Source: Halopiger xanaduensis SH-6 (lineage in GTDB: Archaea; Halobacteriota; Halobacteria; Halobacteriales; Natrialbaceae). Taken from it: a stretch of DNA of 64,000 nucleotides. The stretch covers positions 62,001-126,000 of the forward strand of contig NC_015658.1 of the NCBI RefSeq assembly GCF_000217715.1, in the 5' to 3' direction. A program made the position numbers and the translations under genes. The notes under the pieces were generated by a model. The model had not been told where the DNA came from. It ran no database searches and was given only the letters and a program-made list of their open reading frames with translations. Positions 30,014-52,709 of this stretch are shown here, one piece after another. Position 1 is the stretch's first letter. The number at the start of each line of letters is the position of its first letter.

Positions 30014-30046
30014 ACATTAATTAGGGTAGTCACACAACCATGTGTG
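30014..30046 (+). promoter_or_regulatory. Promoter and CACACA/TGTGTG palindrome of the second Opp operon
   Basis: ATTAATTA (about 30016-30023) is the TATA region. CACACA-ACCA-TGTGTG (30031-30046) is a perfect palindrome with a 4-bp centre and would overlap the transcription start, a common place for a repressor site. Confidence 0.4.
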
Positions 30047-30056
30047 CAACGATACC

Positions 30057-31061: not shown

Positions 31062-31070
31062 ACCGCGGGC

Positions 31071-31125
31071 GGCCGGACTGCCGGCCCCCGTCCGACAGCC
31101 CTCGAGCGCGAGCGCGTTCGAGGGC
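31071..31125 (+). terminator. Two tandem GC-rich hairpins inside the importer operon
   Basis: GGCCGG-ACTG-CCGGCC (31071-31086) lies 9 bp after the permease B stop codon. A second hairpin with 8-bp arms GCCCTCGA / TCGAGGGC (31098-31105 and 31118-31125) follows. There is no T-tract, so attenuation or transcript processing between the two permease genes is as likely as true termination. Confidence 0.35.
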
Positions 31126-31220
31126 CACTCGCAACGCCAGCACGAAACGCCACACATGACGCAGGTTACGACCCGAACCAAGCCGCGCGACTCGAGCGCG
31201 GCCGTGACGGAGGTGAACCG

Positions 31221-32348
31221 ATGACGAACCGGAACGACGACTCGACGGCCACGAGCGACGGTGCGGACCCGTTCGCCGACTGGGAGGAACCGGACCGAGA
31301 CCGGGACGCGGACGCGCGGACGGACGGCGGCAACGTGAGCTCCCCGTTCGAAGTCGTCTCGGAGTACGAGGAATCTCGCGGCGATCGGCTCCGAAAACTG
31401 TACGACACCTACGTCTATGCGCCGATCGCCATCATCTGGCGCGACTGGCGGGCGCGGATCGGCTTCACCATCATCATGTTTTACCTCCTGATGGGCATCG
31501 TCGGTCCGTACCTGATCGAACCGACCCAGGTGACGGAGGGGCCGGCGCTGGTCCAACCGTTCGAGAGCTGGGAGTACCCCCTCGGGACGGACAAGATGGG
31601 TCGGGACCTGCTGTCCCAGACGGTCCACTCGACCTCGACGATCCTCAAGATGATCGCGTCGGGCGCTCTGGTCACCGTCGCCGTCGGCACCCTCATCGGC
31701 GGCGTCGCGGGGTACAAGGGCGGCGCGACCGACACGGTCCTGAGTTCGATCACGGACGTCTTCATCAATCTTCCAGGGTTCCCGCTCGTGATGATTCTGG
31801 CCGCGCTGTTGCCCGTCGGCGACAACCCGTACATGGTCGGCGTGCTGCTGAGCGTCGGCGCGTGGGGCGGCCTCGCACGGGCGATCCGCTCGCAGGTGCT
31901 TACCATCCGCCACGAGTCGTACGTCGAGGCGGCCCGCGGAATGGGCATCCCCACCCACCGCATCGTATTCAAGGAGATCATCCCGCAGCTGATGCCGTAC
32001 GTGGTGATCAACCTCACGAACGCCGCCCGGCGCGTCATCTTCGAGGCGGTCGCGCTGTACTACCTCGCCATCTTGCCGTTCTCCTCCTCGAGTGTGAACT
32101 GGGGCGTCATGCTCAACCAGGCGTACCAGGAGGGGGCCTACTACACGGCCGGCGCGCTCCACTGGTTTATCGTCCCGATGGTGACCATCATCGGCATCTC
32201 GATCGGCCTGATCCTGCTCGGCCAGTCGCTCGACCGCGTCTTCAACCCGCGCGTCCGTGCCCGTCACGAGAAGACGACTGGCGAGGGCGGCGAGCCGGAC
32301 GCCGACGAACCGGAAGAACAGAACACGAACGTCGTCGGTGGAATCTAA
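31221..32348 (+). CDS. Opp/Dpp-type ABC importer permease C (second importer)
   Basis: Inner-membrane permease of 375 aa with a long acidic cytosolic N-terminus (about 75 aa), a first helix in IGFTIIMFYLLMGIVGPYL, the family loop PLGTDKMGRD, further helices and the EAA loop (EAARGMGIPTHRI). A clear Shine-Dalgarno sequence (GGAGGTGA) lies a few bases before the ATG, which fits an internal operon gene. Paralogous to 14338-15405. Only 12 bp separate it from the fused ATPase gene. Confidence 0.93.
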   Translation: MTNRNDDSTATSDGADPFADWEEPDRDRDADARTDGGNVSSPFEVVSEYEESRGDRLRKLYDTYVYAPIAIIWRDWRARIGFTIIMFYLLMGIVGPYLIEPTQVTEGPALVQPFESWEYPLGTDKMGRDLLSQTVHSTSTILKMIASGALVTVAVGTLIGGVAGYKGGATDTVLSSITDVFINLPGFPLVMILAALLPVGDNPYMVGVLLSVGAWGGLARAIRSQVLTIRHESYVEAARGMGIPTHRIVFKEIIPQLMPYVVINLTNAARRVIFEAVALYYLAILPFSSSSVNWGVMLNQAYQEGAYYTAGALHWFIVPMVTIIGISIGLILLGQSLDRVFNPRVRARHEKTTGEGGEPDADEPEEQNTNVVGGI

Positions 32349-32360
32349 CTACCCGAACCA

Positions 32361-34571
32361 ATGACCGTTTCACAAACCTCACAACCCGAACTCGACCGCA
32401 GTATCGAGACGACAGACCCGATTCTCGAAGTGCGAAACGCGTCCGTCACGTTCGATATGAACCGCGGCCAGTCGCGGGTCCTCGACGACGTCGATATCGA
32501 CATCGAACGCAACGAGGTCTTAGGAATCGTCGGCGAGAGCGGCAGCGGCAAGTCGATGCTCGCGTCGGCGCTGCTCGACGCCGTCGTCGATCCGGGACTG
32601 CTCAGCGGCGAGATCACGTACCGTCCACCCGACGGCGACCCGATAGACGTCCTCGAGCTCGACAAAGACGAACTCAAGGAGTTCCGCTGGGAGGAGGTCT
32701 CGATGGTCTTCCAGGGGGCGATGAGTTCGTTCAATCCCGTTCGGAAGATCCGCACCCACTTCGTCGAGACGCTGAGCGCCCACGATTACAACGTCGAAGA
32801 GGGGATGCGACGCACCCGCGGCATCCTCGAGGACCTCTACCTCGATCCCGACCGAGTGCTCAGTTCGTACCCCCACGAACTCTCCGGCGGGATGAAACAG
32901 CGGGCGCTGATCGCGCTCTCGCTCGTCCTCGAGCCCGAAGTATTGGTGATGGACGAGCCGACCGCCGCGCTCGACCTGCTGATGCAGCGGTCGATCATCT
33001 CGCTGCTCGAGGAGATCAAGGAGCAGTACGACCTGACGATCGTGTTCATCACCCACGACCTGCCGCTGGTCGCGGATATCGCGGATCGGGTCGGGGTGCT
33101 GTACGCCTTCGAGTTCGTCGAACTCGGCCCGACCGACGAGATCCTCGAGGATCCTGCGCACCCGTACACGCGGCTCCTCCTCAAGTCGACGCCGAACCTC
33201 GCCGCACCGATCGAATCGATGCGTCCGGTCGAGGGGAGCGCACCGGACCCGGTGAGCGTTCCGTCCGGCTGTTCGTTCCACCCCCGGTGTCCGATCGGCG
33301 ACTCGGCGTGCGAGGTCGACGCGCCCGGGCCGTACGACGTCAACGACGATCACCACGTCCACTGCCACTACTGGGAGGAGGCCACCGAACGGATCTCGAT
33401 GGACACCGACGTCGAGTCGGCAGAAGACGACGACCTGATCGGCATGGACGACTCGAGCGTCACCGGGCGGACGCGGTCGCGCTCGTCGCGGACCGGCGAG
33501 CCGGTGGTGTCGCTCGACGACGTCGAGGTCCACTTCGAGACGGAAGGCGGCTTCCTCGACGTGTTCTCCGATTCCGACGTCGTCAAAGCCGTCGACGGCA
33601 TTTCGTTCGACATCTACGAGAACGACGTGGTCGTTCTCGTCGGCGAATCCGGCTGCGGGAAGACGACGCTCGGCAAGACCGCCATCGGGCTGCAGGAGCC
33701 CACCGGCGGCAGCGTCCGCTACCGCGGCCACGACATCTGGGACGTGAAGGCGAACGGCAGCGAGGAGACGAGCTGGGCGGAGATCCGCCGGTCGCTGCAG
33801 ATCGTCCACCAGGACCCCGGCAGCGCGCTGAATCCCAACCGCCGCGTTCGCCAGTCGCTCGAGGAGCCTCTCAGGCGCTGGAACAAGGAACTCGACGGCA
33901 ACGACCGAAAGCAGCGGATCTTGAGCCTGCTCGAGCACGTCGGCATGACGCCGCCAGAAGATTACATCGAACGCTACCCGCACCAACTGTCGGGCGGCGA
34001 GCAGCAGCGCGTCGCCCTGATCCGCGCGATGTTGATGAATCCGGAGGTCATCCTCGCGGACGAGCCGGTCTCGGCGCTGGACGTCTCCCTGCGCGTCGAG
34101 ATGATGGACCTGATGATCAAGCTGCAGGACACCTTCGACACGTCGTACCTGTTCGTCTCGCACGACCTCTCGAACGCCCGCTACATCACGGAGAAGACGG
34201 GCGGTCGGATCGGCGTCGTCTACCTGGGCGAACTCGTCGAGATCGGGCCGCCGGAACAGATCATCCACAACCCGCAGCATCCCTACACGAAGGCGCTGCG
34301 GTGGGCGACGCCGGAACTCGATCCCGAGGAGGAACGGGCCGAGGAAGCGCCGATCCGCGAGATCGACATCCCCGACCCGACGAATCCGCCGAGCGGCTGT
34401 CGCTACCACACCCGCTGTCCGGAGGCTCGAGAGGTCTGCCGGACCGAACGACCGGACGCGTACAGCGGGTCCGACGACGACCTCCACGAGGTGACGTGCT
34501 TCCGCGCGCTCGAGGACCACGAGTACTGGACCAGCGAGCCGATCACTGACGACGGCGGCGCGCCCGAGTAA
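32361..34571 (+). CDS. Fused double ATPase of the second Opp/Dpp-type importer (DppD-DppF fusion)
   Basis: Single chain of 736 aa with two complete ABC ATPases. Half 1 (about residues 20-340) has Walker A GESGSGKS at 58-65, LSGGMKQRAL and VMDEPTAALD, plus an oligopeptide-type Cys extension. An acidic linker (about 350-380, EDDDLIGMDDSS) follows. Half 2 (about 380-725) has GESGCGKT near 428-435, LSGGEQQRVAL and LADEPVSALD, and its own Cys extension. In the first importer the same two functions are separate overlapping genes (13280-14341 and 12198-13283). A frameshift or sequencing artefact is unlikely, because the linker reads smoothly and both halves are complete. It energises import by permeases B and C. 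Confidence 0.92.
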   Translation: MTVSQTSQPELDRSIETTDPILEVRNASVTFDMNRGQSRVLDDVDIDIERNEVLGIVGESGSGKSMLASALLDAVVDPGLLSGEITYRPPDGDPIDVLELDKDELKEFRWEEVSMVFQGAMSSFNPVRKIRTHFVETLSAHDYNVEEGMRRTRGILEDLYLDPDRVLSSYPHELSGGMKQRALIALSLVLEPEVLVMDEPTAALDLLMQRSIISLLEEIKEQYDLTIVFITHDLPLVADIADRVGVLYAFEFVELGPTDEILEDPAHPYTRLLLKSTPNLAAPIESMRPVEGSAPDPVSVPSGCSFHPRCPIGDSACEVDAPGPYDVNDDHHVHCHYWEEATERISMDTDVESAEDDDLIGMDDSSVTGRTRSRSSRTGEPVVSLDDVEVHFETEGGFLDVFSDSDVVKAVDGISFDIYENDVVVLVGESGCGKTTLGKTAIGLQEPTGGSVRYRGHDIWDVKANGSEETSWAEIRRSLQIVHQDPGSALNPNRRVRQSLEEPLRRWNKELDGNDRKQRILSLLEHVGMTPPEDYIERYPHQLSGGEQQRVALIRAMLMNPEVILADEPVSALDVSLRVEMMDLMIKLQDTFDTSYLFVSHDLSNARYITEKTGGRIGVVYLGELVEIGPPEQIIHNPQHPYTKALRWATPELDPEEERAEEAPIREIDIPDPTNPPSGCRYHTRCPEAREVCRTERPDAYSGSDDDLHEVTCFRALEDHEYWTSEPITDDGGAPE

Positions 34572-34714
34572 CGAGGCCGGCTCTCCTCAGTTGCCCGGCG
34601 CCCGTTCTCTGGGCCCGGACAGTAGCGCGGTCCGTGTGCCCCCTTGAGGACTTCTCGAGCACCGCGAAGCGGCGCGTCTCGCCGGTGAGGGGCAGCATCG
34701 TCTACCCTTCGATT

Positions 34715-34748
34715 CTCTCGCATTGTGACTGATGATTAATTATATATA
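34715..34748 (+). promoter_or_regulatory. Promoter of the second binding protein with an IclR-1-type site
   Basis: TATATATA (34741-34748) is centred about 27 bp before the ATG at 34771. Nine bases upstream, 34715-34731 reads CTCTCGCATTGTGACTG; its core TCGCATTGTGA is palindromic apart from one base pair and shares CATTGTGA with the palindrome at 3619-3635 (11 of 17 bases overall). Confidence 0.5.
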
Positions 34749-34770
34749 CCTCCATTATCAATTGGGTGGT

Positions 34771-36624
34771 ATGCCAGATCCTACCAATAGGTACAGCAGC
34801 GCACGGAGTCGGCGAGACATCCTCAAGGCTGGTGCGGTCGGTGGCACTGCACTAATCGCGGGCTGTAGTGGCGGCGGCAACGGAAACACCACTGGAAACG
34901 GCGGTGGCGGTGGTGGTGGTGGCGGCGACGATTCGCGACTCACCTACTTCGATCCGGTCGGCGATCCGCCGGGCCAGCGTCACTTCAACCCGTGGAACCC
35001 CTCACAGACCGGCTGCTGGCATCCGGGCGCGAACGTCTTCGACCGGCTCGCGATCCACTCTCCGGCGACCAACGAGGCGTTCCCCATCATCGCCAACAGC
35101 TGGGAGATGACCGACGATACGACGCTCGAGACGGAACTGAGCGACGAGTGGACGTGGCACAACGGCGATCCGGTCGTCGCGCAGGACTGGGCGATGCAGT
35201 GGGAGATGGAGATCGCGATCTCGACGGCCGGCGACGGCGACAACCCGACGCCGATGGAGGAGATCGAGGTTGTCGACGATCACTTCCTGCGGATCAACCT
35301 GAACACGGAACTGTCGGAGATCTTCGCCGTTCAGAACACGATCGGCTGGTACCACGGCGACATCGGTCGCGGCATCTACACCAAACACGACGACGACCAG
35401 TGGAGCGAGTGGCACGACCAACTGTTGAACTCGGAGGGCGACGAACTGGACTCGGTCATCGAAGAAATTACGACCTCGAGCTATCCCAACGTCGAGGACG
35501 CGATCGGTCAGGGTCCGTTTCAGGTCTCGGAGGTCGGAGACGATGTCATCTTGATGGAGAAGTACGAGGATCACCCCCGCGCCGACGACATCAACTTCGA
35601 CGAGTTCGAGCTCTGGGTGTCCGGCGACGTCGGCGAACGCGTGCAGCCGTACGCCAACGGGATCGTCGACGCCGTTCCGGGCGGGTATCCGGTCCCGGAG
35701 AGTCAACGGAACCAGCTTCCCGACACCCACTCGCTGTACCGGGAAGCGCGGACCGCAAACTCCCTGATTTGCTTCAATTGCGGGCACGAAGTAGAGGGGT
35801 ACGACTCCGCGGTCTCGAACGAAAACGTTCGAAAGGCGATCGCCCACATTTACGACAAGCAACAGACCGAAGGCCTTCTGCAGGGCGTCAAGCAGCTGTT
35901 CGACGGCCCGCCGTGTCGAATTCCGGGGCCGACGATCGAAGAGGGGAGCCACCCCTCCACGGAGTGGATCCAGGACTTCCCCCGGTACGGCCAGAACGAC
36001 ACCGAGCGCGCGGCGGAACTGCTCCGTCAGGAAGGGTACGAGCAGGACAGCGGCGAGTGGCTGAATCCCGACGGCGAGCGCTTCGAGCTCAACATCCTGA
36101 ACCCGGCAGAGCAGGAGCACCTGCAGGTGCTCATCCAGAACTTGGAGGACTTCGGGATCGCGGTCGAGGCCGAGAACGTCGACGACGCGACGATGAACGA
36201 GCGGCGACAGAACGGCGAGTACGACATCATCCCCGACGGCTCCTCGGCCAACGGCGTCTTCGCCATGTGGTCGCCCGGTCTCATCGTCGACTGGATCTCG
36301 CAGCTTACCAACTACGAACCCGAGGCCGAAATCCCGATGCCCGTCGGCGATCCGGAGGGTTCCAGCGGGACGAAGACGATCAACATCGCCGACCACGTCG
36401 AGCAGTGGATGGCAACCGACGACGAAGAGTACCACAAGGAGCTGACGTGGTGGTGGAACCAGACGCTGCCCGAGTACGAGGCGCTGTACGAACCCGACGC
36501 CGCCGCGCTCAACACGGCGCACTTCGAGTTCGACGGCGTGCCGGACACGATCGTCGACGGCGTCGACGACGCGCTGTACATCGCGCCCAAGCTCGAGGAG
36601 GGAACGCTGCGATACAAGGAGTAA
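34771..36624 (+). CDS. Opp/Dpp-type extracellular solute-binding lipoprotein (second importer)
   Basis: Substrate-binding protein of 617 aa. Tat motif SRRDILKAG, then a lipobox IAGC (Cys32) and a Gly-rich flexible linker (residues about 33-55) tie it to the outer face of the membrane. The rest is an SBP_bac_5 fold (TWHNGDPVVAQDWAMQWEME, ENVRKAIAHIYDKQQ). A TATA box at 34741-34748 sets the leaderless start at 34771, so it has its own promoter although it follows the fused ATPase gene by only 200 bp. That is a usual way to make more binding protein than transporter. Sequence similarity to the first binding protein (16449) is limited, so a different ligand is likely. Confidence 0.9.
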   Translation: MPDPTNRYSSARSRRDILKAGAVGGTALIAGCSGGGNGNTTGNGGGGGGGGGDDSRLTYFDPVGDPPGQRHFNPWNPSQTGCWHPGANVFDRLAIHSPATNEAFPIIANSWEMTDDTTLETELSDEWTWHNGDPVVAQDWAMQWEMEIAISTAGDGDNPTPMEEIEVVDDHFLRINLNTELSEIFAVQNTIGWYHGDIGRGIYTKHDDDQWSEWHDQLLNSEGDELDSVIEEITTSSYPNVEDAIGQGPFQVSEVGDDVILMEKYEDHPRADDINFDEFELWVSGDVGERVQPYANGIVDAVPGGYPVPESQRNQLPDTHSLYREARTANSLICFNCGHEVEGYDSAVSNENVRKAIAHIYDKQQTEGLLQGVKQLFDGPPCRIPGPTIEEGSHPSTEWIQDFPRYGQNDTERAAELLRQEGYEQDSGEWLNPDGERFELNILNPAEQEHLQVLIQNLEDFGIAVEAENVDDATMNERRQNGEYDIIPDGSSANGVFAMWSPGLIVDWISQLTNYEPEAEIPMPVGDPEGSSGTKTINIADHVEQWMATDDEEYHKELTWWWNQTLPEYEALYEPDAAALNTAHFEFDGVPDTIVDGVDDALYIAPKLEEGTLRYKE

Positions 36625-36881: not shown

Positions 36882-37685
36882 TCAGGACGGCGAGTCCCAC
36901 TCGAGGCCCTTGCCGACCGCCGCGAGCCCGCCGTCGACCTCGAGGTTCGTCCCGGTGATAAACGAGGCGTCGTCCGACGCCAGAAATCGGATCGCATCGG
37001 CGACTTCTCGCGGCGCTGCGGCGCGTTTCAGGATTCCGGGGCCGTCGGCGTGGGGCGCGGTCTTCTCGTCGAAGAACGCCGCCGCTTCGTCCTCGTCGTC
37101 CGGCAGGTGGTAGTCGGTGATGACCCAGCCGGGCGAGACGGCGTTGACGCGGATCCCGTCGGGAGCGTGGTCGCAGGCCATATCTTTCGTCATGGAGACG
37201 AGCGCGCCCTTGGTGGCGTCGTACTGGGACCAGTCGGGCCGCGCGACTTCGGCCCCGTTCGAGGCCACGTTGACGATCGCGCCGCCGTCCATGTGCGGAA
37301 TCAGGTGTTTCGCACAGAAGGCCGCACCCTCGAGGTTCACGCCGAGGATCCGATCCCAGCTTTCCGTGTCGGCCTCGGTGACGGGCCCGGGATCGACGCG
37401 AACCCCGGCGTTGTTGACCAGTACGTCGACCCCGCCGAAGCGGTCGACGACGGTTTCTGCCATCTCCTCGACGGCCGCTTCGTCGGCGACGTCCGCTTCG
37501 ATGGCGATCGCTTCCCGGCCGGTCTGCTCCGTTACGTCCGCGGCGGTCGCCTCGGCCGCATCGCCGTCCCAGTCGACGGCGACGACCGACGCGCCCGCCT
37601 CGGCGAGTCGGAGACAGGTTGCTTCGCCGATTCCCGCACCGCCGCCGGTAACGACGGCGACCGCATCTGCCAGCGTCTCTGACAT
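36882..37685 (-). CDS. Short-chain dehydrogenase/reductase (SDR)
   Basis: Classical SDR of 267 aa. Cofactor motif TGGGAGIG (13-20), acidic Asp38 after strand 2 (VVAVDWDGD), which favours NAD over NADP, NNAG at 91-94 and catalytic Ser142, Tyr155 and Lys159 (QYDATKG). The 3' end shows an LEVDGG loop. A TATA-like box (minus strand, around 37709-37716) supports the ATG at 37685. Its neighbours are the uronate and galactarolactone enzymes and the second importer, so it probably oxidises or reduces a sugar or keto-deoxy-sugar-acid intermediate (inference). Confidence 0.85.
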   Translation of the reverse strand: MSETLADAVAVVTGGGAGIGEATCLRLAEAGASVVAVDWDGDAAEATAADVTEQTGREAIAIEADVADEAAVEEMAETVVDRFGGVDVLVNNAGVRVDPGPVTEADTESWDRILGVNLEGAAFCAKHLIPHMDGGAIVNVASNGAEVARPDWSQYDATKGALVSMTKDMACDHAPDGIRVNAVSPGWVITDYHLPDDEDEAAAFFDEKTAPHADGPGILKRAAAPREVADAIRFLASDDASFITGTNLEVDGGLAAVGKGLEWDSPS

Positions 37686-37854
37686 ACCGTCTCACACATC
37701 GGTGCGTCCAATAATAGCTTCGGCGCTCGCGTCGACTATGGGACGGTCGCGAGCACTGAACGGCAATCCACGGCACCCGGTCATCTATTGCGGGCGTCGC
37801 AGCAGCGCGCCGAAATCGCTCGAGTCGACGGCTGTCAGAATCGGTTGAGGTGCG

Positions 37855-38079
37855 TCACTGGTACGACCACCAGATGATCGCGTACGCCGTCGCACCGACG
37901 ATCGTCAACGCCGTTCCCCAGACCGCGAGTATCGCCGCCCACACGCCGGTCTGGAGGACGAAGCCTGTCAGGAGTAACAGGACTCCCATCGCGAGGATGA
38001 CCAGCGATACCGAGTTCTGAATGAGTCCGAGCCCCTGGCGGACCGGTTCTGGAACGGATGCCCGTTGGATCGTCGACAT
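37855..38079 (-). CDS. Small two-helix membrane protein
   Basis: Protein of 74 aa with two predicted membrane helices (about residues 23-45 and 48-70) and a short basic N-terminus. GATATAAAT at about 38103-38111 (a minus-strand TATA) supports the start at 38079. A hairpin GTCGGT-CTGT-ACCGAC (38140-38155) separates it from the upstream uronate-dehydrogenase-like gene. No family recognised. Confidence 0.6.
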   Translation of the reverse strand: MSTIQRASVPEPVRQGLGLIQNSVSLVILAMGVLLLLTGFVLQTGVWAAILAVWGTALTIVGATAYAIIWWSYQ

Positions 38080-38169
38080 TGTATCCGTTACTACGTCATT
38101 CCGATATAAATTGATTGGGGAACGATACCTATTCTCGTGGTCGGTCTGTACCGACTCGGATTACCCGGC

Positions 38170-39009
38170 TTACTCCGGCGGCGCGTCCCACTCCTCGCCG
38201 TCGTCCTGCGGATCGTAGCCGATCCGGGCCCGAGCGTGCTCGAGGTCGAACCACCGTCGGCGGTTGTCGCTGACGCCGTGGAAGACGTCGAAGGCGACGT
38301 CGTCGTCCTGTAGACAGCAGTCGATCTGGTGGGCGAAGTCCCGACGGGACTGCCACATCGCCTTCATCCGCGCGACCCAGCGCTCGTACTCGTCGCTGCC
38401 GCGCTCCCAGTCGCCCTCGTCGACGCCCTGCTCGGCGTCCCCGTAGGGGTGGTCGTACTCGCTCGAGTTGACCGTACAGATCCGCAGCGCGTAGAACTGC
38501 TTCGGGTACTCGTAGTCCTCGACGTAGTACCGGCCGAGGTCCTCGCCGAAGCTCTTCGAGGCGCCGTAGTAGGAGTCCGGCCGCACCGGGTCGGTGTGGT
38601 CGAGCACGAGGTCGTGGTCGCGCCCGTAGATCTCGGGGGCGTTCTCGAGTTCGTACATGCCCATCACGTGGTTGGTCGACCCGAAGACGATCGACTCGAC
38701 TTCCGCCTCGCGGGCGGCCTCGAGGACGTTGTACATGCCGATGATGTTGGGTTTGAAGACGTCGTGCCAGTCGCCCTCCGCGCTGGGGAACGCGGCGAGG
38801 TGGACGATCGCGTCCTGGCCCTCGCAGGCCTCGCGAAACGTCTCGTAGTCGCTGATATCGCCGACGACGGTGTCGTAGCCGCCGTAGGGATGATCGTCGG
38901 GGCGGTCCGAACGGTTGTAGTACGTGAAGTCGTACTCCTCGCGGTCGTGCAGGTGGTCGATGATCGCCGTACCGCAGCGACCGTAGGACCCGGTCACAAG
39001 GACGTCCAT
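38170..39009 (-). CDS. NAD-dependent epimerase-fold dehydrogenase, uronate-dehydrogenase-like
   Basis: Extended SDR of 279 aa. Rossmann motif TGSYGRCG (6-13), SSNH-like STNH (111-114), catalytic Tyr148 and Lys152 (YYGASK), and the C-terminal signature SDNRRRWFDLEHAR, all of which resemble bacterial uronate dehydrogenase (Udh), which oxidises galacturonate or glucuronate to the aldaro-lactone. The next gene upstream on the same strand is cycloisomerase-like, the partner of Udh in the oxidative uronate route. In haloarchaea the same fold also serves as an unusual glucose-6-phosphate dehydrogenase (Azf), which is the main alternative. The TATA at about 39030-39038 (minus) supports the start at 39009. 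Confidence 0.8.
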   Translation of the reverse strand: MDVLVTGSYGRCGTAIIDHLHDREEYDFTYYNRSDRPDDHPYGGYDTVVGDISDYETFREACEGQDAIVHLAAFPSAEGDWHDVFKPNIIGMYNVLEAAREAEVESIVFGSTNHVMGMYELENAPEIYGRDHDLVLDHTDPVRPDSYYGASKSFGEDLGRYYVEDYEYPKQFYALRICTVNSSEYDHPYGDAEQGVDEGDWERGSDEYERWVARMKAMWQSRRDFAHQIDCCLQDDDVAFDVFHGVSDNRRRWFDLEHARARIGYDPQDDGEEWDAPPE

Positions 39010-39081
39010 ACCAGGTATCGATGCAGTATGCCTATTAAATTGGTGGGTTCGATGGACCGGCCCGCCGCTCTTGGGAGCCGG

Positions 39082-40218
39082 TTACTCGTCGGCGCGGTAC
39101 CGCGCCAGCGCGGCCTCGTCGATCGAAACTCCCAGACCGGGCTCCTGGGGAACCTCGAGCACGCCGCCGGCGGGGTCGAACGGCTCCTCGAGCAGTTCGC
39201 TGCGCAGCGGGTTGGTGCTGCGGTCGAACTCCACGAGCATCGGCTCGGGCACGTTTCGGGTGTGGGGGTAGTCCGAGACGCTGGCGGCGAACTGGATCGC
39301 GGCGGCCATGCCGACGGCGCTGTTCCAGATGTGAGGCCTGACGGCGACGTTCTCCGTCGAGGCCATGTCGGCGATCAGCCGGGCCTCCGAGAGGCCGCCG
39401 CAGCGGCCGAGGTTCGGCTGGACGATGTCGACCTGCCGGTCGTCGATCAACTGCTTGAAATCGAACCGGCCGTAGTGGGCTTCTCCCGCTGCCAGCGGGA
39501 CGTCGACCTTCGCTTTCACGTCCCGGTAGCCAGACGGGTTCTCCGGCGGCACCGGCTCCTCGATCCAGGCGACGTCGTACTCGGCGATCGCGTTCGCCGT
39601 CTTGATCGCCTGGTGCGGCCGATAGTTCCCGTTCATGTCGACCATGAGCGTCCCGTCGTCGCCGAGGACCTCGCGGGCGACGCGGACCCGTTCGACGTCG
39701 GTCTCGGGATCGGCGCCGATCTTGATCTTGGCGGCGGTGAACCCCTCCTCGACCGCCTCTTGAATCGGCTCCTCGAGCGGCCGGTCTTCGGCCGTGTAGT
39801 ACATCGTCGAGGCGTAGGGGGTCAGCGTCTCGCGCTCGCGGCCGCCGAGCAGCCGGTGGATCGGCCGGCCCACCGACTTCCCGACGATGTCCCAGCAGGC
39901 GACGTCGATCGCGCTCAGCGCGCTCTGGACGAAGACGTCGCCGCCGAAGTGGTACGGATCGGTGTAGGAGCCGTCGGCCAGCGACTCGACGTCGAACGGG
40001 TCCATGCCGATCACGTCGTCCCGGAACAGTTCGTCGATCGTCGCCGCGGCGATCGATCCGGGTGCGAACGCCTCGCCCCAGCCGACGAGTCCGTCGTCGG
40101 TCTCGAGGCGGACGAGCGTAGTTGCACGGGTTCGACCGAATCCGCGGGCGTCGCCGAGGCCGCGCCCCTCGGGTAACTCGTGTTCGAGCGGAATCGTCTC
40201 GAGTGACGTGATTTCCAT
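39082..40218 (-). CDS. Galactarolactone-cycloisomerase-like enolase-superfamily enzyme
   Basis: Enolase-superfamily enzyme of 378 aa that resembles Agrobacterium galactarolactone cycloisomerase (Gci) all along its length, including the end (PLVEFDR-type EFDRSTNPLRSELL and PGLGVSIDEAALARYR). Active-site residues are Lys164 and Lys166 (AKIKIG), Asp195, Glu221, Glu247 as metal ligands, and His297 (RPHIWN). Gci opens the galactarolactone formed by uronate dehydrogenase to a keto-deoxy-hexarate. It lies upstream of the Udh-like gene on the same strand with 72 bp between them. A TATA-like AGCTATTTC (around 40240-40248, minus) supports the start at 40218. Of the four superfamily members here, this is the best assigned. 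Confidence 0.82.
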   Translation of the reverse strand: MEITSLETIPLEHELPEGRGLGDARGFGRTRATTLVRLETDDGLVGWGEAFAPGSIAAATIDELFRDDVIGMDPFDVESLADGSYTDPYHFGGDVFVQSALSAIDVACWDIVGKSVGRPIHRLLGGRERETLTPYASTMYYTAEDRPLEEPIQEAVEEGFTAAKIKIGADPETDVERVRVAREVLGDDGTLMVDMNGNYRPHQAIKTANAIAEYDVAWIEEPVPPENPSGYRDVKAKVDVPLAAGEAHYGRFDFKQLIDDRQVDIVQPNLGRCGGLSEARLIADMASTENVAVRPHIWNSAVGMAAAIQFAASVSDYPHTRNVPEPMLVEFDRSTNPLRSELLEEPFDPAGGVLEVPQEPGLGVSIDEAALARYRADE

Positions 40219-40446
40219 GTGCTACCGAGTGGCGCCCGCCCCGAAATAGCTTGCGCTGACGGCGCTTTCGTCGCCGAGACGGCCGGGACGGTCGCAGCCG
40301 AGACTCGAGCCTGCGGATCAGTGTCGATCCTCGCCGTTTCCGCGACGGTTCGCCTCGGAACGTACTCGACGTCCGCCGCGGATTCGTGGACGACCGGCAC
40401 CGGTGCTTCTATGAGGCCGCCCGTTCTCGCTTCCGCTCGTACCGAA

Positions 40447-41136
40447 ATGCCGTCAGCACCGATTACCGTCCACCTGATCGGAGATTCGACCGCGGCCGAG
40501 AAAGAACCAGACGCCCGACCCGAAACGGGGTGGGGAACGCCCTTTGCCGACCGGTTCGACGAGTCGGTGACCGTGGAAAACTACGCCCGAAACGGCCGTA
40601 GCACCCGCACCTTCTTGGAGGAAGGCCGCTGGGAGCCCGTTGTACGCGACCTCGCCGAGACCCACTACGTGTTCGTCCAGTTCGGGCACAACGACGAGGT
40701 CCCCTCCAAGGAACAGTACACTCCCCCGGACGCGTTCGTCGCCAACCTCGAGAAATTCGTCGACGAGACCCTCGACTGCGGGGCGAAACCGGTGTTGCTC
40801 ACGCCTATCGCCCGTCGCCACTTCGACGAGGCCGGCGAGCTAGAGGACACGCATGCGGAGTATTCGGAACTGACGCGATCCGTCGCACGGGAGCGCGACG
40901 TGCCGCTCATCGATGCGGACGAACGGAGTCAATCGCTCCTGCGCGAACTGGGGCCCGAGGAGTCGAAATCGCTCTACCTTCACCTGTCGCCGGACGAGCA
41001 CCCGAACTATCCCGACGGCGCAACCGACGATACGCACTTCAGCGAGCGCGGCGCTCGGCGGATGGCCGACCTCGTCCTCGAGGGGATCGACGACTTGGGG
41101 CTCGAGTTGGCCGCTCGAGTCGTCCGAGACGAGTAG
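40447..41136 (+). CDS. SGNH/GDSL acetylesterase, CE12 rhamnogalacturonan-acetylesterase-like
   Basis: SGNH hydrolase of 229 aa with all four blocks: GDST with Ser14, Gly in RNGRST, GHND (80-83) and DDTHFSERGA near residue 205. The overall pattern is that of CE12 enzymes that remove acetyl groups from rhamnogalacturonan or pectin. No signal peptide is visible, so it probably acts on imported oligosaccharides in the cytoplasm. The frame is open upstream to 40219, and an in-frame ATG at 40411 is also possible; I use 40447 because it puts the GDS block at the usual distance from the N-terminus. Divergent from the cycloisomerase-like gene. Confidence 0.8.
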   Translation: MPSAPITVHLIGDSTAAEKEPDARPETGWGTPFADRFDESVTVENYARNGRSTRTFLEEGRWEPVVRDLAETHYVFVQFGHNDEVPSKEQYTPPDAFVANLEKFVDETLDCGAKPVLLTPIARRHFDEAGELEDTHAEYSELTRSVARERDVPLIDADERSQSLLRELGPEESKSLYLHLSPDEHPNYPDGATDDTHFSERGARRMADLVLEGIDDLGLELAARVVRDE

Positions 41137-41262
41137 CGGTAGACGAACGCAGTGTGGCCAGTCTGCTGTCCCCTCGTGTAGCGCCGTCGACCCGTCTTGG
41201 GGACTGGGCAACGATATCGGCAGTACGTTTAAGCGCGTGGTCGTCCGTAACACGGATGTGAC

Positions 41263-42189
41263 ATGCCAGCGACTAGCTTACACGATCAGTTTCGAGACGT
41301 CGCGTTTACGACAGCCGTCCCGTTCAGTCGGGACCGGACGGACGTACGGTACGACGCGCTCGCGGACAACGTCTCGCAGCTGTACGAGGCGGGCGCGCGG
41401 CTGTTCATTCCCTGCGGGAACACCGGCGAGTACTACGCCCTGACCGACGACGAGCGGATCGACGTCGTCGAGAGCCACGTCGAGGCGACCGGCGACGAGG
41501 CCACGATCGTCGGCGGGGCGGCGGGGAACGTCCCCGAAGTGACCGCCCTCGCGGAGGCTTACGAGGCGGTCGGAGCCGACGCGGTCATGGTGATGCACCC
41601 CGATCACACCTACGCGCACGAGTCGGGCCTCCTCGAGTACTACGACCGGATCTGCGACGCGACCGATCTCGGGGTCGTCGTCTACAAGCGCGGCCCCGAA
41701 CTAACGCGGGACGTGCTCGCGGAACTGAGCGAGCGCGAGGCAGTCGTCGCGATCAAATTCGCCGACGACGACGTAAAGGAGTTCTCCCAGACGGTCGACG
41801 ACGCCGACGGCGACGTGACCTGGCTCAACGGGATCGCCGAACGGTACGCCCTCTCCTTCGCGATCGAGGGCGCCGAGGGCTATACGACCGGCGTCGGTAA
41901 CTTCGTTCCCGAAGTGACCCTCGAACTGTACGACGCGATCCGAGCCGAAGAGTGGGACCGCGCCCGCGACCTCCAGCAGCTGTTGCGCCCGCTCGAGGAC
42001 ATCCGCGAGGAATCCGGGACCGAAAACGACCTCGCGGCTGCGAACAACGTTCCCGTCGTCAAACACGGGATGGATCTGGCGGGGTACGAGGGCGGCCCGG
42101 TTCGTCGACCGCTCGTCGAGCTCCCCGACGACGACAAGGCCCGCGTCGAGGATCAGTACGCGACGATCGACGCGGCTGACCCGTACTGA
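41263..42189 (+). CDS. DHDPS/NAL-family lyase, KdgD-like (keto-deoxy-glucarate dehydratase candidate)
   Basis: Class I aldolase-fold enzyme of 308 aa. Schiff-base Lys165 (VVAIKFAD), Tyr141 (VVYKRG) and the GNTGE motif near residue 52-56 are intact. The pattern GNTGEYYALTDDE and the following VMVMHPDHTYAHESGLL recall 5-dehydro-4-deoxyglucarate dehydratase (KdgD), which turns the cycloisomerase product into 2-oxoglutarate semialdehyde. A keto-deoxy-sugar-acid aldolase is the alternative. A TATA-like TTTAAG (41228-41233) lies about 30 bp before the ATG, supporting the start. It follows the CE12-like gene on the same strand by 126 bp but has its own promoter. Paralogous to 49540-50484. Confidence 0.85.
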   Translation: MPATSLHDQFRDVAFTTAVPFSRDRTDVRYDALADNVSQLYEAGARLFIPCGNTGEYYALTDDERIDVVESHVEATGDEATIVGGAAGNVPEVTALAEAYEAVGADAVMVMHPDHTYAHESGLLEYYDRICDATDLGVVVYKRGPELTRDVLAELSEREAVVAIKFADDDVKEFSQTVDDADGDVTWLNGIAERYALSFAIEGAEGYTTGVGNFVPEVTLELYDAIRAEEWDRARDLQQLLRPLEDIREESGTENDLAAANNVPVVKHGMDLAGYEGGPVRRPLVELPDDDKARVEDQYATIDAADPY

Positions 42190-43820: not shown

Positions 43821-45977
43821 ATGGCTAACCACGACAGACGTACGTTTATCCGGGCCCTCGGGCTCGGCGCGACAGGCGCAGTGGCATCGACCTACGCGAC
43901 CGGCAGCGTTGCGGCAGCGACCACGATCACCATCGAGGGCGCCGGCTACGACATCTGGAACGCCAGAGACGAGTTCCACTATTACTACACGGAAGTCGAC
44001 GGCGACTTCGACGTCACCGTCCGCATCGATAGCCTGGAAAACACCGACGACTGGGCGCGCGCGGGGCTGATGGTCCGCCAGACGCTGAACGACGACGCCG
44101 AACACGCGATGATCCGCAAGACGCCCGGCAACGAGACGTCCTTCCAGTGGCGGTCGGACGACGGCAACGACGCCGAAAGCACGACCTCGGGTGGAACCGG
44201 GGAGGCCGAGACGTCCGGCGGCACGATGCAGGCCACCTGGCAGCGCCTCGTCCGCAGCGGCGACACCATCGAGGCGTACGGCTCGACTGACGGGTCGAAC
44301 TGGACGCTGATAGCGGACATCTCGCCCGGCGAGATCGACTTCGCCGGCAGCGCGTACGTGGGCCTCGCCGTCTGCAGCCACAACGAGGGGACGCTGACGA
44401 CGGCGGAGTTCTCGAACCTCTCGGGGCTCTCACCGAGCGACAATCAGGACATCGGCACTGTCGAGGTCGGCGGGAGCGTCTCGACCGGCAGCGGCGACGG
44501 CGGTGGCGGCAGCGGCGACACGGACCCGGTGGTGTCGACGGGGTCGGCGTCGAGCGTCGATTCGTCGTCGGCGACGCTCTCGGGGGGCCTGGACGACCTC
44601 GGCGGGGCGTCGTCGGCCGACGTGGGCTTCGAGTATCGGGAGACCGGCGGGAACTGGAGTGCGACGGCGACGCAGTCGCGGTCGTCGACGGGAAGCTTCA
44701 GCGAGGACGTCTCCGGGCTCGCCAGCGGGACGGACTACGAGTTCCGGGCGACGGTCGCGGCGAGCGACGGCGACAGTGACACCGGGTCGACGAACTCGTT
44801 CACGACCTCGGACGACAGCGGCAACGGCGGCACGTCTGGGGATGGAGCGTACTTCGACTTGTCGGACGGGTTCGCGTCGCCCTCGTGGTTCGACGACAGC
44901 GTGTCCGTCCATCGCGTGCAGAACGCCACTCGGAGCGAACTGGCGAACGCGGTTCAGGGAAGCGGCCCGCGATTGGTCGTCTTCGAGACTTCGGGGACGA
45001 TCGACCTCGACGGCGACGAACTGGAGGTCACCGCTGACCAGTGCTGGATCGCCGGGCAGACCGCCCCTTCGCCGGGTATCACGCTCACACAGGGCCTGTT
45101 CCAGGTCAACGCGGACGACGTCGTCGTCCAACACCTCCGCTCGCGGGTCGGGCCCGGTGACAGCGGCAACATTCAGGGCAACGACTCGTTCAACAGCGCC
45201 GACGGCACGCAAAACGTCATCTTCGACCACTGTACGGCCTCGTGGGGCGTCGACGAGTGCATGTCCGTCGGCTACGACTCGACCGACACGACGCTCTCGA
45301 ACTGCCTCGTCTACGAGGGCCTGTACGATCCATACGGGAACGGCGAGGACCACAACTACGCGACGCTGATCGGCGACGGCGCCGACAACGTCGCGCTACT
45401 GGGCAACGTCTGGGCGAAGACACGCGGCCGCGTCCCCAGACTGAAGAGCGGCACGCGTAGCGTCGTCGCCAACAACGTGATGTACTTCTTCAACGAGGCG
45501 ACGAACATGGACGGCGACACGGAGGCGTCCATCGTCGGCAACCTCTACATCCCCCAGGACCTCGAGGACACCGCTATCGAGGGCGGCAACGCCTACCTCG
45601 AGGACAACGTCACGGACCCGAGTTCGACGCCACTTACCGGTGGGACCTCGGAGCTGTCGAGTCGGCCCCTCTGGCCGAGCGGCCTGTCGGCGATGTCTTC
45701 GGGGGATGTCGAGAGCCACAACATGAACTACGCCGGCGCGCGACCGGCCGACCGAACGAGCAACGACTCGCGGATCGTCTCCGAGATTCAGGACCGCGCG
45801 GGCGACGCGTACACCGACTCGCCCTACGACTACTGGGTCGCCGACCACGAGGAGGTCGGCGGCTATCCGCAACTGCCGGAGAACACCCACTCGCTGAACG
45901 TCCCCAGTTCGGGCCTGCGCGACTGGATCGACCAGTGGGCCCTCGCGGTCGAGGACCCGAACGCCAGTCCGCCGTAG
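43821..45977 (+). CDS. Tat-exported pectate-lyase-like enzyme (PL1 type, copy 2)
   Basis: Secreted enzyme of 718 aa with the same architecture as copy 1: Tat signal (DRRTFIRALGLGATG, Ala-rich cleavage area near residue 33), an N-terminal concanavalin/DUF1349-like beta-sandwich (about 35-212), Gly/Ser linker, fibronectin-III-like domain (about 230-325), second linker, and a beta-helix (about 345-717). Key lyase stretches are PRLVVFETSGTIDL, AGQTAPSPGITL, DHCTASWGVDECMSVGYD and RVPRLKSGTR. It has an acidic C-terminus like that left in the remnant at 43436-43524. Expected to cut pectate or pectin-like polymers outside the cell. The ATG at 43821 has an AT-rich TATA at the right distance. Confidence 0.86.
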   Translation: MANHDRRTFIRALGLGATGAVASTYATGSVAAATTITIEGAGYDIWNARDEFHYYYTEVDGDFDVTVRIDSLENTDDWARAGLMVRQTLNDDAEHAMIRKTPGNETSFQWRSDDGNDAESTTSGGTGEAETSGGTMQATWQRLVRSGDTIEAYGSTDGSNWTLIADISPGEIDFAGSAYVGLAVCSHNEGTLTTAEFSNLSGLSPSDNQDIGTVEVGGSVSTGSGDGGGGSGDTDPVVSTGSASSVDSSSATLSGGLDDLGGASSADVGFEYRETGGNWSATATQSRSSTGSFSEDVSGLASGTDYEFRATVAASDGDSDTGSTNSFTTSDDSGNGGTSGDGAYFDLSDGFASPSWFDDSVSVHRVQNATRSELANAVQGSGPRLVVFETSGTIDLDGDELEVTADQCWIAGQTAPSPGITLTQGLFQVNADDVVVQHLRSRVGPGDSGNIQGNDSFNSADGTQNVIFDHCTASWGVDECMSVGYDSTDTTLSNCLVYEGLYDPYGNGEDHNYATLIGDGADNVALLGNVWAKTRGRVPRLKSGTRSVVANNVMYFFNEATNMDGDTEASIVGNLYIPQDLEDTAIEGGNAYLEDNVTDPSSTPLTGGTSELSSRPLWPSGLSAMSSGDVESHNMNYAGARPADRTSNDSRIVSEIQDRAGDAYTDSPYDYWVADHEEVGGYPQLPENTHSLNVPSSGLRDWIDQWALAVEDPNASPP

Positions 45978-46056: not shown

Positions 46057-47229
46057 TCACCGCTCGCCGACGCTGCCGTCCGCTCGGTGACCGGGCGAGC
46101 GATCGAAGCCGAGATCCGTCCCCGCCCGTTCCCGAACGCGGTCCTCGTCGATGTCGACGCCGAGTCCCGGTCCGTCGGGAAGCTCGAGAGAGCCGTCGGT
46201 CGGTTCGAAAATCTCGCCGTTGTCGACGTAGGCCAGCGCGTCGGCGTCGTCGACGATCACCTGCTCCTGGATCAACGCGTTCGGCGCGGCCGCGTCGACG
46301 TGCAGCGACGCCGCCAGCGCCAGGGGGCCGATCGGACAGTGCGGAGCGATCGAGACGTCGTACGTTTCGGCCGCGTCCGCGATCTTTTTCGTCTCGGTGA
46401 TCCCGCCCGCGCTCGAGATGTCGGGCTGGACGATATCGACCGCGTCCGCCTCGAGGAGCGGGCGGAAGTCCCACCGCGTATAGAGCCGTTCGCCCGCCGC
46501 GATCGGCGCCGTCGTCGCCTCGGCGACCCGCGCGAATTCTCGATCCTGTTCGGGCGTCACCGGCTCCTCGATGAACATCGGCTCGAACTCCTCGAGCGCC
46601 GTCGCCAGCCGCCGGGCCATCGCCTTCGAGGCGCGGCCGTGGAAATCGAGCGCGACGTCGACGTCGGGGCCGACCGCCTCGCGAACCGCGCCGACGATCT
46701 CGCGCGCCCGCTCGACGGTCGCGGGGGTATCGACCGGCTCGAGGCCGCCCGTCGGCACGAGTTTGACGGCGTCGTATCCGGCTTCGACGTGTTCTCGGGC
46801 CTCCGTAGCCGCGGCGGCCGCCGGATCCGAGACGTCGTCGCCGTGAGCCCTGACGTGGTGATAGAGGCGGATCCGATCCCTGGCCGCGCCGCCGAGGAGG
46901 TCGTAGACCGGCATGTCGGCCTCTTTCCCCTTCAGGTCCCACAGCGCCTCGTCGATGCCGGCGATGGCGCTCATGTGGACCGGGCCGCCCCGGTAGAAGC
47001 TGCTCCGGTACATCGCCTGCCAGCAATACTCGATGCGGCTCGGGTCCTCGCCGAGGACGTACTGGTGCATCAGCTGGTCGACCGCGCTCCGCGTCGCCGG
47101 CTCGCTGTCGCCCGCGAAGTGCCACTTGGTGTAGACCTCGCCCCACCCGACCCGGCCGTCGCTCGTCTCGAGTTTGAGGAACTGCCACCGCGGCGGCACT
47201 GCGAAGAGCTCGTAATCAGTTACGCGCAT
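46057..47229 (-). CDS. Galactonate-dehydratase-like enolase-superfamily enzyme
   Basis: Enolase-superfamily enzyme of 390 aa that follows E. coli D-galactonate dehydratase (DgoD) closely: PPRWQFLK at the N-terminus, FYRGGPVHMSAIAGIDEALWD, LDFHGR with Asp195 and the base His197, FIEEP, AGERLYTRWDF, and APHCPIGPLALAASLH with His297. DgoD-type enzymes dehydrate galactonate to 2-keto-3-deoxygalactonate; galactose is present in pectin side chains, so that fits. Alternatively it could act on another aldonate (for example arabinonate or rhamnonate). The frame extends to 47349, but the ATG at 47229 matches the family start. It is divergent from the LLM gene and shares its promoter region. Confidence 0.84.
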   Translation of the reverse strand: MRVTDYELFAVPPRWQFLKLETSDGRVGWGEVYTKWHFAGDSEPATRSAVDQLMHQYVLGEDPSRIEYCWQAMYRSSFYRGGPVHMSAIAGIDEALWDLKGKEADMPVYDLLGGAARDRIRLYHHVRAHGDDVSDPAAAAATEAREHVEAGYDAVKLVPTGGLEPVDTPATVERAREIVGAVREAVGPDVDVALDFHGRASKAMARRLATALEEFEPMFIEEPVTPEQDREFARVAEATTAPIAAGERLYTRWDFRPLLEADAVDIVQPDISSAGGITETKKIADAAETYDVSIAPHCPIGPLALAASLHVDAAAPNALIQEQVIVDDADALAYVDNGEIFEPTDGSLELPDGPGLGVDIDEDRVRERAGTDLGFDRSPGHRADGSVGER

Positions 47230-47312
47230 CCGATCGGTGATGCGACCGGTCGGGCCTTGAACGTACCGCCGCGATCGTGACGGATATAAAATATAACCGA
47301 AAATGTAAGTAC

Positions 47313-47325
47313 GTGCTGATCGCAC
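47313..47325. promoter_or_regulatory. GTGC-N5-GCAC palindrome, LLM promoter (copy 1)
   Basis: GTGCTGATCGCAC lies 16 bp before the ATG of the LLM gene, between the presumed TATA region and the start. The identical sequence lies at 59324-59336 in front of the second LLM gene, 15 bp before its ATG. Confidence 0.6.
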
Positions 47326-47341
47326 TGTCGTATCGGAACAC

Positions 47342-48334
47342 ATGAGCATGAAGTTCGGAATTTTCCCCGTCGAAGGCGGACAGTCGTGGGACGGCGTCGT
47401 CGAGCACTGTCAGCTCGCCGAGGACGTCGGCTTCGAGTCTTGCTGGGTTAACGACCATCAAGCGACCGAGGGTGACAACTACTGGCCGTCGCCGCTGACG
47501 CGGCTGACCAGCATCGGCACCGGCACCGAGGAACTCGAGCTCGTCACGTCGGTATTGATCCTCCCGCTGTATCACCCGCTGCACGTGGCACAGCGAGCGG
47601 CGATGCTCGATAACATCTCGAACGGGCGGCTCACGCTGGGCGTCGGCCTCGGCTACGTCGAGGAGGAGTTCGACGCGTTCGACGTGCCGATGGACGAGCG
47701 CGCCGGGCGAATGATCGAAGGGCTGCGCTTCCTCGACGAGTTCCTCTCGTCGGACGAGCCTATCACCTTCGACTGCCCGTTCTTCTCGGTCGAAGACTGG
47801 CAGCCGTTGCCGCCGACGGTCCAGCAACCCCGTCCTGACCTGTGGGTCGGCGGCTGGGGCGACAAACAGATCGCGCGCTCGGTGAAGTTCAGCGACGCCT
47901 GGGTACCCGGCGTCGTCGCCGACCTCGGCATCGTCGAAGATCGCAAGGAACAGCAGCGCGAGCACATTGAAGACAGCGACCAGGATTGGAACGAGATCGA
48001 ACATCCGTTGATGCGTGAGGCGGTCATCGCTGAAACCGAAGAGGAGGTCATGGAACGCAAGGAGTACGTCCATCGCACCTACATCGACGAGTACGGCGGC
48101 GAGTTCTCGCACCCGCTGATGACCGCCGATTCCGTCGAGGACTTCGAGGAACTGGCCGACGACCGATTCATCTACGGGACGCCCGAGCAGATCGTCGAGC
48201 AGATCGAGTCGATTGGAGAACGATTCCCGTTGGACCACCTTGCGCTTCGATTCCACCACTCCGGGATGCCCAAGGACCTCGTCGAGGACCAGATCCGGCT
48301 GTTCGGCGAGGAAGTCATCCCCGAGTTCGAGTAG
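47342..48334 (+). CDS. Luciferase-like monooxygenase family (LLM) flavin/F420-dependent oxidoreductase, copy 1
   Basis: LLM-class protein of 330 aa with the usual barrel features: FGIFPVEGGQSWDG at the first strand, VNDHQATEGDNYW, LPLYHPLHVAQRAAMLDNISNGRLTLGVG, and a C-terminal GTPEQIVEQIE segment. Family members use FMN or F420 with many substrates. It is nearly identical to the protein at 59352 (five differences in 328 aligned residues), while the DNA differs at many silent positions. Divergent from the galactonate-dehydratase-like gene. No pathway role can be read from the sequence; a sugar or aldehyde oxidoreductase is possible. Confidence 0.88.
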   Translation: MSMKFGIFPVEGGQSWDGVVEHCQLAEDVGFESCWVNDHQATEGDNYWPSPLTRLTSIGTGTEELELVTSVLILPLYHPLHVAQRAAMLDNISNGRLTLGVGLGYVEEEFDAFDVPMDERAGRMIEGLRFLDEFLSSDEPITFDCPFFSVEDWQPLPPTVQQPRPDLWVGGWGDKQIARSVKFSDAWVPGVVADLGIVEDRKEQQREHIEDSDQDWNEIEHPLMREAVIAETEEEVMERKEYVHRTYIDEYGGEFSHPLMTADSVEDFEELADDRFIYGTPEQIVEQIESIGERFPLDHLALRFHHSGMPKDLVEDQIRLFGEEVIPEFE

Positions 48335-52649: not shown

Positions 52650-52709
52650 ACGCTCGATCGCCGCGTCGGCGACACAACGTTTATGTCCGTACTCCGGGAT
52701 AATCGGACG

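Follow-up and report, generated by a model that had tools for sequence, protein, structure and literature searches.

The question raised by this locus is whether haloarchaea that carry pectinase genes also possess a version of the oxidative uronate pathway of bacteria. The stretch analyzed here, referred to as the window, comprises 64,000 nucleotides (bases 62001-126000) of the 437-kb contig C1 (NC_015658.1) of Halopiger xanaduensis SH-6, whose genome of 4.36 Mb is assembled in four contigs. In named genomes orthologous clusters were mostly found on large plasmids, and contig C1 is therefore probably a plasmid as well. A preliminary description of window positions 36882-42189 had proposed that genes similar to those of uronate dehydrogenase (Udh), galactarolactone cycloisomerase (Gci) and keto-deoxy-hexarate dehydratase/decarboxylase (KdgD) form an oxidative galacturonate route next to pectinases. 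Open reading frames (ORFs) were indeed present at these positions, and domain as well as profile searches agreed with the families named, i.e., extended short-chain dehydrogenase/reductase (SDR), enolase superfamily, GDSL esterase and DHDPS family. We consider it quite probable that the cluster represents an archaeal version of the bacterial pathway, serving pectin breakdown. With somewhat less assurance, it is also suggested that haloarchaea own a complete oxidative galacturonate pathway, usually plasmid-borne near pectinases, in which a haloarchaeal uronate dehydrogenase with an insertion of 23-26 residues in the substrate loop would take the first step, as a third functional branch within the Udh/Azf family, and the KdgD step would be filled interchangeably by two distinct DHDPS clades. 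The genes in question, named below by their first position in the window, are:

38170-39009, minus strand: Udh-like SDR of 279 aa, proposed uronate dehydrogenase, member of a haloarchaeal clade whose loop carries an insertion
39082-40218, minus strand: Gci-like enolase-superfamily protein of 378 aa, proposed galactarolactone cycloisomerase
40447-41136, plus strand: CE12-type SGNH/GDSL esterase of 229 aa from ATG 40447, with GDSL Pfam domains and a partial match to PaeY
41263-42189, plus strand: KdgD-like DHDPS-family protein of 308 aa, proposed keto-deoxy-hexarate dehydratase/decarboxylase
49540-50484, plus strand: another DHDPS-family protein (314 aa) resembling KdgD, conserved alongside Udh and Gci more often than 41263
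56583-57827, minus strand: second enolase-superfamily protein, function unassigned, conserved beside Gci

In the proposed sequence of steps, PL1 lyases secreted via the twin-arginine translocation (Tat) pathway would cut pectate, a dipeptide-type ATP-binding cassette (ABC) transporter would bring in oligogalacturonides, and a cytoplasmic GH28 enzyme would free D-galacturonate. The SDR at 38170 would oxidize D-galacturonate with NAD(P)+ to galactarolactone, which the protein at 39082 would open and dehydrate to 3-deoxy-2-keto-hexarate; dehydration and decarboxylation by the proteins at 41263 and/or 49540 would then yield 2-oxoglutarate semialdehyde, and a chromosomal 2,5-dioxovalerate (KGSA) dehydrogenase (KGSADH), probably shared with pentose catabolism, would produce 2-oxoglutarate. 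The reading is carried by family-level gene identities, conserved linkage, co-occurrence with GH28 and catalytic residues, from which we infer the individual reactions, the choice of galacturonate over glucuronate, transport and expression.

Linkage across haloarchaea and the final dehydrogenase

Gci-like, Udh-like, DHDPS and KGSADH genes were found to be linked repeatedly across genera, far above chance. The sample comprised 36 loci whose Udh-like gene shows 60% identity or more. Of these, 15 had a Gci gene no farther than 10 kb away (0.2 expected), 14 a KGSADH gene (0.5 expected) and 17 a DHDPS gene of the 49540 type (0.3 expected). Co-occurrence was followed in 292 haloarchaeal genomes, where protein searches scored the top six to eight candidates per genome. 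Gci was detected in 30 genomes belonging to 17 genera and GH28 in 21 genomes; 20 of the 21 genomes with GH28 possessed Gci, as did 10 of the 271 without it (Fisher 1e-22, a P value that overstates independence, the genomes being related). All 30 Gci genomes contained a Udh-like gene at 64% identity or more, together with a DHDPS gene of the 41263 type, the 49540 type or both.

The gene order, which had been likened to that known from bacteria, turned out to be distinct. Haloarchaeal clusters read KGSADH-Udh-[USP]-Gci-DHDPS, whereas Shinella displays Gli-Gci-KdgD-KduD-KduI with a divergent Udh, and kdgD of Comamonas is located apart from the other genes. Within the window, the CE12-type esterase does lie between the Gci-like and the KdgD-like gene, as had been described. 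Its ORF was listed with a GTG start at 40219, abutting the start of Gci; the likely start, however, is ATG 40447, which leaves approximately 230 bp free between the divergent units, one holding Gci and Udh on the minus strand, the other the esterase, the KdgD-like gene and the genes onward on the plus strand. The esterase shares 81% identity with a gene of Haloterrigena turkmenica annotated as rhamnogalacturonan acetylesterase.

The final semialdehyde dehydrogenase had been reported as missing from the window, and no aldehyde dehydrogenase was found there. A search of the whole genome revealed eight, seven on contig C3 and one at C1:294745, and two of the chromosomal copies on C3 exceed the cut-off of the haloarchaeal 2,5-dioxovalerate dehydrogenase model NF052305 (886 and 857 bits, cut-off 750). 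Both adjoin FAH-family genes of the pentose type, and the enzyme is probably shared with pentose catabolism in Halopiger. KGSADH genes directly adjoining Udh on plasmid pHTUR02 of H. turkmenica and in Haloprofundus halobius pass the same cut-off (864 and 841 bits), and the aldehyde dehydrogenase neighbouring Udh in Halostagnicola larsenii is 85% identical to the one of H. turkmenica; thus the full set is present in one place in H. turkmenica, Halostagnicola and Haloprofundus.

Candidate enzymes of the first three steps

For the protein at 39082 the top PDB match was 4ggb, the Gci of Agrobacterium tumefaciens (250 bits over the whole length). In the opposite direction, of the eleven enolase-superfamily proteins matched by the Gci-type protein of the canonical bacterial cluster of Shinella, 39082 scored highest (266 bits, 182 for the next), so that 39082 and bacterial Gci are reciprocal best matches. 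The haloarchaeal clade groups with bacterial Gci and PDB 5olc, albeit with modest support (84), and Lys-x-Lys, the Asp/Glu/Glu metal ligands and the catalytic His are retained. The protein would thus more probably be a cycloisomerase than a dehydratase of open-chain substrates.

The second enolase-superfamily protein, at 56583, has copies of 66-78% identity in many Gci loci. None of the curated models searched fits it, dehydratase models matching weakly; it could be a galactarate dehydratase acting alongside Gci.

Four DHDPS-family proteins are encoded in the genome, namely 41263, 49540 and two outside the window, one of which, as the best DHDPS match of the genome (314 bits), is probably DapA. 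The proteins at 41263 and 49540 share 40% identity. A study of 2026 distinguished KdgD, in which Thr54 binds the C6 carboxylate, from KdaD, which has a catalytic Glu (PMC13398020). The Schiff-base Lys, the catalytic Tyr, the Thr54 equivalent and the Arg of 'YxR' are all retained in 41263, which is also the closest match of bacterial KdgD among the four; 49540 keeps Lys and Tyr and displays Ile at the Thr54 equivalent. An identity as KdaD was rejected for both, each having Tyr and neither the catalytic Glu. Of the two KdgD-like proteins, it is 49540, outside the interval first described, that is better conserved as a partner: its type occurs in 29 of the 30 Gci genomes, the exception being Haloprofundus halobius (G100). 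In that species the slot beside Gci is occupied by the 41263 type (L156), in its congener G056 by the 49540 type (L077), and this exchange in one slot within one genus suggests that both types have the same function.

A further DHDPS-like protein, present in several of the pectin clusters, is encoded at L172:5212-6147, with homologues in L071, L075, L076, L096 and L148; it is only approximately 26% identical to 41263 and 49540, and its catalytic Tyr is replaced by Phe.

The structure predicted for 38170 (pLDDT 95) had uronate dehydrogenases as its top five PDB fold matches, a result that cannot discriminate between Udh and Azf, there being no structure of the latter among the matches listed; the best PDB matches by sequence are uronate dehydrogenases as well. 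The SDR residues Thr112/Tyr148/Lys152 are retained, together with Asn113/His114. In the study of Haloferax Azf, glucose-6-phosphate binding was linked to a motif, NLTX2H, and an uncharacterized haloarchaeal 'group 2' near Azf was described to carry an insertion in that loop (PMC8506132). In 38170 the motif is absent, NSSEYDH standing in its place, and 46 residues separate the RI strand from the conserved Trp-x-Ser, where bacterial Udh has 20 residues and Azf 23; the active-site-loop insertion of the clade amounts to about 23-26 residues. Its sequence thus fits the description of 'group 2'.

Beside Udh, an MBL-fold hydrolase gene was observed in H. turkmenica (L171:21533-22384) and in Halostagnicola larsenii (L190:21050-21901), and it may code for a lactonase acting on what Udh forms; in H. 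turkmenica a gene of the lactonase family was noted at L171:26330-27418, too.

Objections and competing explanations

The route proposed in the preliminary description thus keeps in its favour the linkage, the co-occurrence with GH28, the reciprocal match of Gci, the residues of KdgD and the presence of KGSADH in the genome and, in relatives, beside Udh. Several observations weigh against it. First, 38170 shares the fold and the catalytic residues of Udh, but neither its clade nor a reciprocal best match: in the tree it falls within a haloarchaeal clade separate from both bacterial Udh and Azf, and bacterial Udh searched into the genome retrieved it third (60 bits), after Azf (99 bits) and L003 (63 bits). 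By these measures it belongs to a third, haloarchaeal clade and is not an orthologue of Udh, and its proposed role as Udh is therefore derived from context. As Udh-like loci without Gci are common, the clade may act on other substrates. Second, 39082 differs from bacterial Gci near the active site by His197->Gly and His249->Tyr; throughout the sampled haloarchaeal clade both His sites are occupied by Gly and Tyr, with Phe at the second site in one member. Third, 41263 reaches only 133 bits on the KdgD model TIGR03249 (cut-off 374), and 49540, as noted, is the more frequent partner. Fourth, the one PL-bearing locus examined of Natronoglomus mannanivorans AArc-m2/3/4 (L094) has a Udh-like and a 49540-type gene and no Gci. 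Fifth, isolates with GH28 and PL genes were reported to show no growth on pectin, polygalacturonate or rhamnogalacturonan (PMC9726719), and growth of a Natrarchaeobius strain on galacturonate was marginal or none (PMC12343721). Finally, the oxidative route need not be the sole route for uronates, because the genome also encodes a glucuronate isomerase, UxaC, on the main contig (C3:3105699-3107048, L150; 526 bits, cut-off 387).

It was considered whether the same module might instead oxidize another aldose or aldonate, for instance a pentose or an L-sugar of pectin side chains. The protein at 38170 would then be an aldose dehydrogenase, 39082 would either dehydrate an aldonate or act as a cycloisomerase on an anhydro-sugar, and DHDPS and KGSADH would finish a pathway of the C5 type. 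The end enzymes are identical to those of pentose pathways, loci combining Udh-like, DHDPS and KGSADH genes without Gci are common, and the Ile of 49540 replaces the residue with which KdgD binds the C6 carboxylate. However, haloarchaeal loci of the pentose type join KGSADH to an FAH-family dehydratase and an SDR of the L003 type, near an arabinofuranosidase gene, and both chromosomal KGSADH copies of Halopiger have just such FAH-family neighbours. Moreover, 41263 and 49540 have Tyr in place of the KdaD Glu, Thr54 is kept in 41263, and the association with GH28 is near-exclusive. This explanation is thus regarded as unlikely, and a pentose pathway in particular, examined through the neighbourhood of the L003-type SDR and the FAH-family context, was held unlikely as well.

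There is a small chance that galacturonate is degraded via UxaC and downstream enzymes, the genes of the window then serving glucuronate or a minor substrate. In addition to the score of UxaC, the isomerase route for glucuronate predicted for H. turkmenica by Anderson et al. (2011; PMC3102087) would fit this view. Yet UxaC is located on the main chromosome between two pentose-type loci, with GH3, transporter and pentose-type genes around it and apart from the pectinases, and GH28 and PL genes are accompanied by Gci and Udh instead of UxaC. The search of the genome covered UxaC and KduI, the latter of which was not found. That 38170 might be an Azf-type NAD-dependent glucose-6-phosphate dehydrogenase, the identity which according to the preliminary description would overturn the proposal, is very improbable and was rejected: although Azf (NF041293) is its best NCBIfam model and it shares 44% identity with the Azf of the genome, it scores 185-192 bits against a cut-off of 400, the true Azf is encoded elsewhere (C3:1118966, 475 bits; L003 being a third relative), and the glucose-6-phosphate motif is replaced in a loop 23 residues longer than that of Azf.

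Neighbouring genes and comparison with known systems

The oxidative galacturonate route proposed here is embedded in genes for pectin depolymerization, transport and regulation:

27438-29564, plus strand: second PL1-like pectate lyase, secreted, with twin-arginine N-terminus (PelZ model 237 bits)
30042-36624, plus strand: ABC transporter of the dipeptide type, with two permeases, fused ATPases and a binding protein, by Pfam
36882-37685, minus strand: SDR, substrate unassigned, member of the conserved cluster with copies in other loci
43821-45977, plus strand: PL1-like pectate lyase, secreted, with twin-arginine N-terminus (PelZ model 189 bits)
46057-47349, minus strand: galactonate dehydratase of the DgoD type (NF010624, 482 bits, above cut-off 311)
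52683-54260, plus strand: GH28, proposed cytoplasmic galacturonidase, no signal peptide (PF00295, 167 bits)
57913-58680, minus strand: IclR-family regulator (KdgR/BhcR-like), conserved in many Udh loci

The arrangement of PL1 enzymes outside and GH28 inside the cell, as first described, agrees with the twin-arginine N-termini of both lyases and the lack of one in GH28. Both lyases fall short of the PelZ cut-off of 840, and the best models for GH28 are PglA and alpha-galacturonidase. The transporter is conserved at 58-78% next to SDR/Udh in other genera, and the SDR at 36882 has copies of 70-83% identity near PPC/KGSADH/Udh and the dpp transporter in seven loci (L077, L093, L094, L098, L105, L156, L157). 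The DgoD-type dehydratase is probably devoted to galactose of pectin side chains.

Further observations concern genes of less certain connection. The LLM-class F420-type oxidoreductase at 47342-48334 shares 94-95% identity with its counterparts in pectin clusters from other genera (L071, L171), whereas the genes around it reach about 80%. Nearby are a gene (55877) similar to F420/NADPH oxidoreductases and another LLM gene (59352); npdG and cofC are found in the Haloprofundus cluster as well. These genes suggest that pectin catabolism might include a step dependent on F420. The 636-aa protein at 21068-22978 had no match in Pfam, NCBIfam or PDB; pieces of it are 37-67% conserved beside DHDPS, ThuA or GH28 genes in the Gci loci L102, L158, L159 and L163. 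Directly upstream of the GH28 gene, a thiamine-diphosphate enzyme similar to acetolactate synthase (50937-52649) stays under all cut-offs shown. The left part of the window (238-29564) contains GH31, GH81, two GH3 genes and a TrmB regulator, and hence this replicon may serve the attack on several polysaccharides.

In the open-access literature, to which the search was directed with subscription journals outside it, haloarchaeal pectinase genes are reported, but neither growth on pectin nor an oxidative galacturonate route, and no report of the latter was found for archaea. Anderson et al. (2011; PMC3102087) described pectinases of H. turkmenica and the isomerase route mentioned above; an oxidative route for galacturonate was sought in their text and not found. 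The present cluster supplies named candidate genes for such a use of galacturonate, the most complete clusters being those of H. turkmenica, Halostagnicola larsenii, Haloprofundus and Halovivax. If the reading is true, a function would be assigned to the 'group 2' haloarchaeal SDRs, neighbours of the archaeal glucose-6-phosphate dehydrogenase in sequence space.

We take the cluster to be a probable haloarchaeal variant of the route by which bacteria oxidize uronates. With the pathway of A. tumefaciens and Shinella (Udh-Gli-Gci-KdgD-KGSADH; PMC6353982) it has in common the families at each step save Gli, the predicted end product, the clustering of genes and the link to pectin. It differs in that the Udh-like protein, with its loop insertion, belongs to a separate clade, Gci is 39-41% identical and shows the two histidine changes, the KdgD-like proteins fall into two types and share 26-30% identity, a gene of the Gli type was not recognized in the cluster, KGSADH is encoded in trans in Halopiger, and PL1, GH28 and CE12 genes are included. 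Haloferax volcanii Azf belongs to the same extended-SDR family as 38170, from which it is set apart by model cut-off, NLTX2H motif and loop length. The haloarchaeal oxidative pentose pathway shares the final 2,5-dioxovalerate dehydrogenase, but employs an FAH-family dehydratase and another SDR where the Halopiger cluster has DHDPS-family enzymes. In H. turkmenica a parallel is provided by pHTUR02, where the orthologous cluster includes genes for PL1, pectinesterase and CE12.

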